Of a DNA stretch of 64,000 nucleotides, positions 7,020 through 9,354 are shown piece after piece. The DNA comes from Nocardioides mesophilus. GTDB lineage: Bacteria > Actinomycetota > Actinomycetes > Propionibacteriales > Nocardioidaceae. Within the stretch, counting starts at the first letter, position 1. Each line of letters begins with the position of its first letter. The stretch is from contig NZ_CP060713.1 in NCBI RefSeq assembly GCF_014395785.1, positions 1,578,501-1,642,500 on the forward strand. The letters are read 5' to 3'. Below the pieces are notes generated by a model that was not told where the DNA came from, did no database searches, and saw nothing but the letters and a program-made list of their open reading frames with translations. The translations under genes were made by a program, and so were the position numbers.

Positions 7020-8132
7020 GTGACCGTGGACGTCACCACCACCCCCCTCGACCGGGCGCTCGAGCGCGGCCGGTCCTCAGCCCGGCAACGGCTCGCCCGG
7101 CTGCGGCAGAACACCTGGCACATCGTGCAGTGCGCGCTCGCCGCCGCGGCGGCGTACTTCGTGGCCTCGGAGGTCCTGGGGCACGCCACCCCGTTCTTCG
7201 CCCCGATCGCGGCGGTGGTCAGCCTCGGCACCTCCTACGGGCAGCGGTTGCGCCGGGTCGCGGAGGTGACGCTCGGCGTGGCCATCGGGGTCTTCGTCGC
7301 CGACCTCTTCGTCACGGTGGCCGGGTCGGGCGCCTGGCAGCTGGCGCTGGTCGTCGCGATCGCGATGTCGACGGCGTTCCTGCTCGACGCCAGCCGGCTG
7401 TTCGTCACCCAGGCGGCGGTCCAGTCGATCGTGGTGACGACGCTGGTGCCGGACCCGGGCGCCGGCTTCACCCGCTGGACCGACGCGCTGGTCGGCGGCG
7501 CCGTGGCCCTGGTGGCCGCGACCATGGTGCCGCGGGCGCCGCTGCGCCGACCGCGCGAGCAGGCCGCCGTCGTCGTACGCAAGACCGCCCAGCTGCTGCG
7601 CAGCGCCTCCGAGGTGATGGTCGACGGTGACGTGGAGCGGGCGCTGGTGCTGCTCGCCGACGCCCGGAGCACCGAGTCGCTGGTGCGCGAGCTCCAGGAC
7701 GCCGCCGACGAGGGACTCTCCGTGGTCGCGTCCTCACCGTTCCGGGTGCGGCACCGGGAGCCGCTGCGGCGGATGGCCGAGCTGGTGGAGCCTCTCGACC
7801 TCGCGCTGCGCAACACCCGGGTGCTGGTACGTCGGGCCGCCGTCGCCGCCCACCGGCAGGAGCCGGTCCCGCCCGGCTACGTGGTGGTCTGCGCCGAGCT
7901 CGCCGACGCCGCCGACGCCGTGGCGACCGAGCTCGAGGCGGACCGGATGCCGATCGCGGCGCAGCCCGCGCTGCTGGCGGTCGCCGCCGGCACCGGCCGG
8001 CTCGAGCGCAGCCCCGACCTGTCCGCGGAGTCGATCCTGGCGCAGATGCGCTCGGTGGTCGCCGACCTGCTGCGGATCACCGGGATGGGCGTGCTCGAGT
8101 CCTCCGACGCGCTGCCGCCCGCGCCGCACTGA
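7020..8132 (+). CDS. FUSC-family (aromatic acid exporter-like) membrane protein
   Basis: A 370-residue protein with four to six hydrophobic helices in residues 30-175 (AYFVASEVLGHATPFFAPIA, then LGVAIGVFVADLFVTVAG and later segments), followed by a long charged alpha-helical cytoplasmic region. This matches the half-size FUSC/ArAE-like proteins common in actinobacteria. Export of small aromatic or other organic anions is the usual guess, with no direct proof. The GTG start at 7020 is 36 bp after the DedA stop, so the two may be cotranscribed. Its end abuts the first 32-bp repeat array, which begins 18 bp after the stop. Confidence 0.75.
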   Translation: MTVDVTTTPLDRALERGRSSARQRLARLRQNTWHIVQCALAAAAAYFVASEVLGHATPFFAPIAAVVSLGTSYGQRLRRVAEVTLGVAIGVFVADLFVTVAGSGAWQLALVVAIAMSTAFLLDASRLFVTQAAVQSIVVTTLVPDPGAGFTRWTDALVGGAVALVAATMVPRAPLRRPREQAAVVVRKTAQLLRSASEVMVDGDVERALVLLADARSTESLVRELQDAADEGLSVVASSPFRVRHREPLRRMAELVEPLDLALRNTRVLVRRAAVAAHRQEPVPPGYVVVCAELADAADAVATELEADRMPIAAQPALLAVAAGTGRLERSPDLSAESILAQMRSVVADLLRITGMGVLESSDALPPAPH

Positions 8133-8149
8133 GCCCCACCCCACCCCAC

Positions 8150-8309
8150 ACCCCGCCGAGTCGGCGCATCTGCAGCCCTCCACCCCGCCGAGTCGGCGCA
8201 TCCGCAGCCCTGCACCCCGCCGAGTCGGCGCAACCGCAGCCCTGCACCCCGCCGAGTCGGCGCATCCGCAGCCTTCCACCCCGCCGAGTCGGCGCATCCG
8301 CAGCGCGTC
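8150..8309 (+). repeat. Tandem array A: five 32-bp units
   Basis: Five units start at 8150, 8182, 8214, 8246 and 8278, an exact 32-bp period. Each carries the nearly invariant core GCCGAGTCGGCGCATCYGCA followed by about 12 less conserved bases. The core contains an 11-nt near-palindrome (GCCGAGTCGGC). Since 32 is not a multiple of three and both strands hold stops, it is non-coding. It lies just behind the FUSC gene and faces array B in opposite orientation. Confidence 0.9.
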
Positions 8310-8585
8310 CGGGCGACCAGCTGTGATGTCGAGCTCTGACTCACCGCTCGGCAGCCGCATCGAAGGGGCCCACACCATCGGCCGCGACTGCGGCATCGCG
8401 GGAAGCAGGAGGCGCCACCCGTGGCCAGGCGCGGTCTCGTGCCTTCAGGACTCGCAGCAACCAGCGCGCAGGGTGCCCTGTTGTTGCCGCAAACCCTGCT
8501 CGGGAGCAGCAACGAGCGCGCAATGTGCGCTGACGTTGCTCGCCGAGGTCACCCCGTCACCGCCGACCGAATCGGCGTCCGTCAG
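8310..8585. other. Non-coding core between the two mirror arrays
   Basis: This stretch of 276 bp holds no convincing gene. It contains a 17-bp direct repeat, GCAGCAACSAGCGCGCA, at 8454-8470 and 8506-8522 (one mismatch), a 14-nt palindrome CTGCTCGGGAGCAG at 8496-8509, and a degenerate copy of the array core near 8563-8577 (CGACCGAATCGGCG). Its composition is less extreme than the surroundings. Whether it is transcribed is unknown. Confidence 0.5.
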
Positions 8586-8711
8586 GCTGCAAACGCGCCG
8601 ACTCGGCAGGCCCTGAGGCTGCAGACGCGCCGACTCGGCAGGTCCCGGCGCTGCAGACGCGCCGACTCGGCAGGTCCTGGCGCTGCAGATGCGCGACTCG
8701 GCGGGTGGGGG
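8586..8711 (-). repeat. Tandem array B: four 32-bp units, inverted relative to array A
   Basis: Units start at 8586, 8618, 8650 and 8682, again an exact 32-bp period. Read on the minus strand, each carries the same core as array A with one or two changes (GCGTCTGCA in place of GCATCYGCA). The last unit has lost one base in its GCGCCGACTC segment and runs up to the stop codon of the channel gene at 8712. The two arrays therefore face each other across a 276-bp core. Confidence 0.88.
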
Positions 8712-9122
8712 TCAGCTGTCGTCGCGGCGGCCCAGCCGGGACTCGAGCTCGGCCATCCGGTCCGAGAGCAGCCTCAGCTGGGCCAGGATCTCCTCGTCGG
8801 CCCGACGCTCGCCCGCCTCGAACGGGTCCGTGTCCTCCTTCACGAACAGCGAGGCCAGGGCCGCACTCACCCAGGCCAGGAGCACGAAGCCGGAGAGCAT
8901 CAACGCGACGGAGACCAGCGCACCGGCCACCGTCTCCGGCTGCTCGCCGATGAAGCCGACCGTGGTCATCAGCGAGGTGGCCCACCACAACCCTTTCCAG
9001 AACGAGCCGACCGTGCCGGTCTCCAGCGACGCTACGGCGCCGGCGCTCAGCCCGATGAGCGCCAGGGCCACCACGAGCATCGGTCCGAGCCAGGACCTGC
9101 GGATCCGGGGCAGCTGCGGCAT
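8712..9122 (-). CDS. Two-TM ion-channel family protein with atypical filter
   Basis: A 136-residue protein with the layout of a minimal potassium channel: TM1 at about residues 12-32, a pore helix with WKGLWWATSLMTTVGF (filter TTVGF at 53-57), TM2 at about 65-93, then a charged helical tail (about 100-131) with heptad-like leucines suited to tetramer assembly. The filter reads TVGFIGEQPET rather than the usual TVGYGD, so selectivity is uncertain. The start has an AGGAG ribosome site 6 nt upstream. Its stop codon touches repeat array B. A longer frame up to 9383 is rejected because it runs through the GC-rich repeats. Confidence 0.75.
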   Translation of the reverse strand: MPQLPRIRRSWLGPMLVVALALIGLSAGAVASLETGTVGSFWKGLWWATSLMTTVGFIGEQPETVAGALVSVALMLSGFVLLAWVSAALASLFVKEDTDPFEAGERRADEEILAQLRLLSDRMAELESRLGRRDDS

Positions 9123-9164
9123 GGCGCTCTCCTCTCGATGGTCCAGCGTGCCACCGCGGCCGGT

Positions 9165-9354
9165 CCGGCGGCCATGACCCAACCGGCCCCGGTCCGGCAG
9201 GGTCCGGAACGGTCGGGCAGGGTCCGCCCGGTCCGGCCAGGGTCCGGCACGGTCCGGCAGGGTCCGTCCGGTCCGGCCAGGGTTCGCCCGGTTCGGGGCA
9301 GGGACCGCCGGGGCCGGCGGCCATGACCCAACCGGCCCCGGTCCGGCAGGGTCC
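9165..9354. repeat. 41-bp direct repeat pair enclosing degenerate GGTCCGGCAG repeats
   Basis: Positions 9165-9205 and 9314-9354 are identical 41-bp direct repeats. The interval between them is filled with degenerate copies of a roughly 15-bp unit built on GGTCCGGCAGGGTCC. The block lies between two divergent starts (9122 on the minus strand and 9396 on the plus strand), so it is upstream of both genes. No gene is supported in it. Confidence 0.85.

Follow-up and report, generated by a model that had tools for sequence, protein, structure and literature searches.

What are two arrays of 32-bp repeats that face each other where two convergent genes meet, and how do such structures arise, spread and stay alike? 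The question is raised by positions 8150-8711 of the window, by which we mean the whole stretch of 64,000 nucleotides analysed here (G000:C1:1578501-1642500), part of a genome, G000, that consists of a single 4.49-Mb contig. The left arm (8150..8309, plus strand) comprises five 32-bp units, each with a core made up of GCCGAGTCGGCGC and a tail; the cores, with their tails given in brackets, lie on the plus strand at 8155 (ATCTGCAG), 8187 (ATCCGCAG), 8219 (AACCGCAG), 8251 (ATCCGCAG) and 8283 (ATCCGCAG), at steps of exactly 32 bp. The right arm (8586..8711, minus strand) has four units, with cores at 8595 (GTTTGCAG), 8627 (GTCTGCAG) and 8659 (GTCTGCAG) and a degenerate outermost unit at about 8682-8706, where a 1-bp deletion shortens the step to 31 bp. 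The exact 32-bp period ascribed to both arrays in the initial annotation thus holds for the left arm but not for the outer unit of the right, while the core positions on both strands agree with its description of two arrays with a common core, in opposite orientation around a loop of 276 bp (8310..8585). A further palindromic repeat, family B, had been overlooked; it is present twice in that loop (8457..8487 and 8509..8539, corresponding to G000:C1:1586957-1586987 and G000:C1:1587009-1587039). As also described, the array edges abut convergent genes, whose stop codons lie close outside them: the left neighbour, a FUSC-like transporter gene (7020..8132, plus strand), ends at 8132, 22 bp before the first core, and the right neighbour, a two-TM ion-channel-like gene (8712..9122, minus strand), has its stop codon (8712-8714) at the outer edge of the right arm. 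Gene calls throughout are those of a custom script rather than a standard annotator. The two arrays reach TRF scores of 277 and 179, and the 21-mer core (≤3 mismatches) matches the window eight times, against 0.04 expected from shuffles. A tandem repeat of another kind (GGTCCGGCAG-type, 10/20/40 bp), unrelated to these arrays, lies upstream of the channel gene at 9188-9318.

The long imperfect stem anticipated from this arrangement is reflected in the folding energy, the 585-nt strand of the element folding far better than 100 dinucleotide shuffles (z = -10.9). Among the features of an intrinsic terminator, the stable hairpin behind the stop codon is present, a U-tract behind it is absent, and no terminator-like site was detected in 7900-9200. 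The best Rfam hit in 7900-9000 scored 20.4 bits against a gathering score of 70, and hence gave no match.

The repeat, here called family A, is found as arrays at many places in the same genome, where 159 copies of the 21-mer (≤3 mismatches; 77 forward, 82 reverse) stand against 4 for the control; the 27 stretches of G000 that were read hold 155 copies, distributed over 24 of them. Each unit is made up of a 13-mer that is conserved and partly palindromic, a genome-specific tail of about 8 nt and a free spacer of about 11 nt. The spacers are alike within one array and unlike between the two arms of a pair, and the arms therefore seem, judging from the spacers, to have grown separately by local duplication. 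The step between same-strand units is narrowly constrained (n = 240; 181 steps of 32 bp and 38 of 31 bp). The order of the arms is constrained as well: in 70 loci whose selection relied on the core or on tandem cores and took no account of order (from G000, G005, G001, G203 and ten other genomes), arms that neighbour each other within 400 bp meet as plus then minus at 30 junctions and as minus then plus at one, a further minus-plus pair of single units at 1573 kb in G000 having been removed by the filter. The plus-minus order of 79 of the 89 named elements is circular and does not count, as those loci were selected by that very pattern. Single-arm arrays without a partner also exist. Among 74 intergenic rows with a tandem period of 32 bp, from loci most of which had been selected for the core, only one lacked the core; in Nocardioides sp. 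PD653-B2 an intergenic 31-bp tandem repeat of 3.7 copies (L094:7206-7319) lacks the family A core. Arms were more alike within than between elements in only one of five genomes tested (p = 0.14 in G000, 0.008 in BAFB, 0.49 in psychrotolerans, 1.0 in JCM 3358 and 0.08 in albus). A relation of orientation to the replichores, suspected from one genome, was dropped as other genomes did not follow it, and the GC skew of the stretches gave no clear origin. A GCGAAGCGAAGCGAGCG-type sequence recurs in the loops at L085, L088, L114 and L131 and at the groEL ends of the luteus clade, and may be a further loop repeat.

The initial annotation held that its reading would fall if the core were found only here. 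A core search across Nocardioidaceae shows that it is not so confined, and paired arrays recur, mostly at gene ends. Among 38 relatives, the dialect of this genome is found in G005 (146 copies) and G002 (13), with at most one copy in each of the others, and 30 of 341 genomes of the family carry six or more copies at ≤2 mismatches, a control never exceeding three. When named genomes were scanned for short facing pairs, at least 120 stretches were obtained, and the 80 listed all come from Nocardioides/Nocardioidaceae. In 21 of 391 genomes drawn from the order, 13-mers stand in tandem at a spacing of exactly 32 bp; these genomes belong to two genera of one family, and none to the other families sampled; copies spaced at 32 bp are also present in a third genus (g30; G122 and G125). 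As seen so far, in the listed stretches and in these 391 genomes, family A is thus restricted to Nocardioidaceae. The 13-mer GCCGAGTCGGCGC is common to all, and the following eight bases are typical of the genome: G001 is nearly empty for the present dialect and carries its own, and the leading tails are ATCTGCAG in G000 (80 of 148) and ATCCGCAG in G005 (39 of 60), both counted in loci picked with a pattern that includes the tail, AGTCTCAG in strain URHA0032 (29 of 38) and TTGTGCAC in MAG34 (15 of 16). Several dialects coexist within one genome in N. albus and strain YR527, and many elements in other genomes consist of one short palindrome. Genomes designated by G-handles overlap with named strains (G245 and URHA0032 at the same locus; L317, which was left out as being of the same strain as L100), and their counts are therefore not to be summed. 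The draft contigs C16, C57, C77, C91 and C107 of G005 end at or near family A arrays, so that counts from draft genomes may understate the number of copies.

The placement of the elements is markedly biased towards gene ends. Of the 88 element-bearing intergenic regions at the named loci, 42 separate convergent genes, compared with 61 of 344 background regions (p = 2e-15 versus the rest), and only 2 separate divergent genes, against 81 of 344. The same preference for convergent regions is seen in G000 (14/32 versus 35/195, p = 2e-4), where divergent regions are weakly avoided (5/32 versus 49/195); in G005 the convergent share is 4/12 versus 12/71 and avoidance of divergent regions is absent (3/12 versus 18/71). 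Arms lie in sense behind the neighbouring gene in 29 of 42 cases in G000, 8 of 16 in G005 and 128 of 175 at the named loci, and 26/29, 5/8 and 111/128 of these sense arms, respectively, are located no more than 40 bp from the stop codon. Arms antisense to their neighbour (13/42, 8/16 and 47/175) lie at median distances of 71 to 93 bp.

In G203 a gene of about 320 aa lies between a plus array and a minus array, and a homologue is likewise placed in G000; a clustering of flanking genes gave a cluster of this gene from four genomes. Five close homologues were present among 1889 called genes (G000, G203, N. turkmenicus, N. luteus JCM 3358 and URHA0032). Each of them is bracketed by family A units within 100 bp, a situation found for only 11 of the 1889 genes overall and for none of 560 genes in a 600-kb grid sample. 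Four lie between facing arms and the one of N. turkmenicus between two elements; the 3' end of the URHA0032 gene overlaps a family A element. The predicted protein combines an AbiEi_4 helix-turn-helix (HTH) domain with a REase_MTES_1575 domain (PF13338 and PF18741), several matches being under the curated cut-off and only one of seven matches to PF18741 above it. Weak profile matches pointed to a winged HTH (E = 0.007) and to PvuRts1I (E = 0.03). A Foldseek search with a modest model (mean pLDDT 65.9) gave no hit with E < 0.001: AbiEi (6y8q, E = 0.008) was best, and weak hits were obtained to I-Bth0305I (3r3p, probability 0.97, E = 0.1) and E. coli Vsr (1vsr, E = 2.9). The residues D245, E256 and D258 are invariant. 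On the basis of these domain and model matches, the gene likely encodes an AbiEi-type HTH joined to a Vsr-like PD-(D/E)XK nuclease. Plasmids gave two weak half-length matches to the nuclease, and phages gave none. The Y1 transposase of the RAYT type (PF01797) was found in none of seven genomes of the genus and none of 34 repeat-bearing genomes, control genomes giving a match in 5 of 14. No nuclease gene was found at the 7 array loci of G001, at the 13 of G005 or at 19 newly read ones in ten genomes (one mis-centred locus and G214 included). A prediction for G214 failed, its arms, 1.27 kb apart, enclosing a sigma factor gene and a gene of unknown function instead of the nuclease.

The association extends to paralogues of the nuclease in G000, each with another repeat. 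A homologue of 29% identity (L240:4455-5405) has family B on both flanks, the repeat that also occupies the loop of the window element. Family B (GCAACSAGCG..CGTTGC, with a step of about 51 bp) occurs at 1080, 1237, 1470, 1497, 1573, 1587, 1709, 1938 and 2825 kb of this genome, four of these sites (1573, 1587, which is that of the window, 1709 and 1938 kb) being loops of family A elements; at ≤3 mismatches it is absent from six other genomes of the genus. Facing pairs of family C (GACATGCACTYG) lie on both sides of a third homologue (L036:6689-7588); the family spans L036:6638-7810, with one copy inside the 3' end of the gene, and has further copies at L268. The fourth (L271:16834-17772), with a Pfam match to AbiEi_4 only, is flanked by family D (TTTGAYGCTTCCCATGGG...; L271:16756-17952), of which copies are found elsewhere at L039 and L015. 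When genes were ranked by a repeat common to both flanks, the four nuclease genes of G000 came 2, 3, 5 and 8 of its 791 genes; two genes at L278 (3.09 Mb of G000) with related CCTGGCGATTCCGCCGGTG-like flank repeats, possibly a further family, ranked 7 and 9. In total, eight distinct homologues (E < 1e-10), seven of them the profile's own members, were identified among 2701 + 232 genes, a 109-aa weak HMM match at L052 (E = 0.0026) being set aside, and all eight are bracketed by one of the four families. This is the arrangement of an enzyme gene between repeats of its own, in a sample that is small and partly ascertained. Since six of the eight lie in stretches fetched for family A or B, the association probabilities are optimistic; for L036, included because of a stray core-like match within a gene, and L271, included through the grid, the chance of such bracketing is 9e-5 for these two alone.

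No direct sign of movement emerged around the elements. A long flanking direct repeat, the only kind detectable with shuffled flanks as control, surrounds one of 24 pairs and is lacking from the other 23; it measures 47 bp, flanks the family A element at G000:C1:1938464-1938934 and contains the stop region of the neighbouring gene, and the next-best direct repeat is 10 bp long (shuffle p = 0.03). No clean empty site was found within a small scope, namely the orthologues of the channel gene in the genus and the G005 loci compared with the fetched G000 stretches: the former comprised only 40% and 32% matches in two genomes, unusable for this purpose, and in the latter 12 of 13 loci had no close orthologue in common. 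The one exception was L022, where a neighbouring gene is common to G005 and G000 and the G005 contig ends. A cargo-carrying transposon was rejected as a candidate, the genes between distant arms being mostly ordinary.

The initial annotation had proposed a binding platform, a mobile or recombination-prone element or a source of double-stranded RNA. The second is best supported, given that paired inward-facing arrays recur in other Nocardioidaceae, and the account we favour, which in our judgement stands evenly balanced between right and wrong, is that a homing-like nuclease spreads miniature hairpins at gene ends and keeps them alike. It builds on what was observed of anatomy, recurrence, dialects, placement, stem covariation at one gene end and association with the nuclease family, from which binding, cutting, copying and termination are inferred. 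Telling against it are the absence of direct signs of movement, the failed prediction in G214 and the array loci without a nuclease, the ordinary genes between arms, the weak structure model, the non-significant wobble tests, the limited likeness of arms within an element, the many antisense arms and the weak or absent avoidance of divergent regions in G000 and G005. The window element would then be one copy of a miniature palindromic gene-end family. As the paired arms face each other, a transcript from either side could fold into a long hairpin. Placed behind stop codons, and most of all where convergent genes meet, such a terminator-like hairpin working in both directions would make the element harmless and probably useful. 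The full form would have the nuclease gene between the facing arms. The enzyme probably works like a homing endonuclease and would bind and cut at or near the repeats, whereupon repair would copy the element to new places; repeated rounds of cutting and repair would also multiply the 32-bp units and make the tails uniform. The copy in the window would be a non-autonomous form, its loop holding family B in place of the nuclease gene. A wider version, offered tentatively as falling a little short of an even call, is that in Nocardioidaceae each AbiEi-HTH/Vsr-like nuclease paralogue drives its own palindromic gene-end family (A, B, C and D in this genome) by cut-and-repair and not by transposition, every genome thereby acquiring its own dialect, with copies serving as gene-end hairpins whose likeness the cognate nuclease would maintain.

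The first rival to be weighed is that the elements are hairpins of the host, acting as bidirectional terminators or as protectors of mRNA 3' ends, and kept alike by gene conversion and template switching, with the nucleases as bystanders. The end of groEL, together with the general placement at gene ends, speaks for it. Of 54 genomes, 29 drawn evenly from one genus and 25 selected for being rich in repeats, 49 have a hairpin with z < -2 behind the groEL stop codon (three further loci gave no stop, and loci L231-L233 were left out of the set), and most of these hairpins are unrelated in sequence. A family A-like element (≤2 mismatches) occupies this position in 7 of the 29 and 6 of the 25, thus in several lineages, and its tail is that of the dialect of the same genome or clade (G245, G179, G161, the luteus clade, PD653-B2 and URHA0020). 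In the luteus clade, seven distinct versions of the groEL element keep 98.1% of cells paired with three pairs changed on both sides, a covariation score matched by none of 500 shuffles. As template switching at palindromes could also give matched changes, this covariation shows that the stem is kept, and not why. No significant bias towards wobble pairs on the sense strand was detected (26 versus 23, p = 0.78; 18 versus 13). Among core variants, C2 to T, which would keep a sense-strand wobble, occurs in 50 units from 28 arrays and G10 to A was not seen; positions 3, 8 and 11 show no such pattern (1, 0 and 0 units), and the pattern is consequently not counted as proof of selection on RNA, an idea that was set aside. 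What the host reading leaves unexplained is the fixed 13-mer across genera, the constant 32-bp spacing and the different repeat family around each nuclease paralogue, and the single-arm arrays without a partner also tell against it. We therefore consider it unlikely, with perhaps a modest share of plausibility.

It could also be that the arrays are recombination hotspots that pick up genes between facing arms, the nuclease, perhaps a defence gene, being one of those captured. Genes for an alpha-amylase, an aldose epimerase, an acetyltransferase and a sigma factor are indeed bracketed by family A units or lie between arms, and the failed prediction in G214 fits such a process as well. Against this, five of the 11 bracketed genes belong to one family and come from five genomes, and the paralogues with families B, C and D would demand three more coincidences, which renders capture improbable. 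More doubtful still is a platform on which a sequence-specific protein would occupy each 32-bp unit (about three helical turns), so that facing arrays would block transcription or organise the chromosome. The palindromic 13-mer, the constant step, the inward order and the clustering of 7 of the 23 family A places of G000 within 190 kb (1.57-1.76 Mb; simulated p = 0.004) would suit it, whereas the tails differ among genomes, the copy number is patchy and many elements elsewhere are a single short palindrome. A source of double-stranded RNA, to which the long predicted stem (z = -10.9) lends itself, is scarcely credible, as no promoter-like site of the sigma-70 type, the only type covered, lies in 7900-9200, gene ends already explain the placement, and we know of nothing here that uses such RNA.

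If spread by a cut-and-repair nuclease is the correct account, it would have consequences beyond this genus. REP-like repeats are common among the small repeats of bacteria, and those without a RAYT, such as the CGTC-tagged REPs, are described without a known mover (PMC3733652). With a nuclease of the present kind as partner, bacterial palindromes would have a second way of spreading and staying alike, genome dialects and the growth of 32-bp tandem arrays would be accounted for by a single step, and the poorly understood DUF559/MTES_1575 family with its AbiEi-type HTH would gain a function. It also makes testable the question of whether the gene-end hairpins of high-GC bacteria are in part domesticated selfish DNA. 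Among the matches listed in the open-access literature, there was none describing such repeats in Nocardioides or tying a DUF559/AbiEi nuclease to repeats.

Several known systems resemble family A in part. The MITEs of DDE transposons are likewise short and non-coding with inverted ends, but the ends of family A are too variable for short duplications to be recognised and 23 of 24 pairs lack a long direct repeat. The DNA uptake sequences of Neisseriaceae have genome dialects, are used as terminators and form inverted pairs at gene ends; family A differs in having tens to hundreds of copies, tandem arrays and a nuclease neighbour. Homing enzymes with the Vsr fold act by cut and repair, and selfish copying of this type, together with the weak fold match to I-Bth0305I, would fit the nuclease of family A, which unlike those enzymes is not located in an intron or intein and is tied to palindromic repeats, its cutting being predicted. 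The CGTC-tagged REPs share with family A the palindrome and the position downstream of genes and between convergent genes, and their published description knows of no dedicated transposase for them (PMC3733652); its main text mentions neither Nocardioides nor Actinobacteria. The 13-mer of family A, in contrast, lacks the CGTC tag, and a candidate enzyme is at hand. The closest parallel is offered by REPINs and BIMEs with their RAYT (TnpA_REP) tyrosine transposases. The initial annotation went too far in regarding matched inverted arrays as unusual for REP-like elements, since doublets in inverted orientation have been reported from many REP families and are what defines REPINs (PMC3733652, PMC3116915); in family A 30 of 31 junctions between extragenic arms likewise face inward. 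REPtrons, in which each RAYT gene is flanked by its own repeat family (PMC3116915, PMC6006769), further share with family A genome-specific extragenic palindromes, hairpin pairs in opposite orientation and compensatory changes (PMC3116915, PMC6006769), as well as an enzyme gene between its own repeats, which families A-D show with nucleases. Family A differs from them in that its 34 repeat-bearing genomes lack the Y1 transposase, the associated enzyme being of the PD-(D/E)XK type, in that its units, read by eye, have no constant GTAG or CGTC tag, and in that its arms expand as tandem arrays. Family A is accordingly REPIN-like in anatomy and arrangement but falls outside the REPINs and REPs by its enzyme and its tag, its unusual features being the tandem growth of each arm in 32-bp units, a tail specific to the genome and the association with a nuclease.
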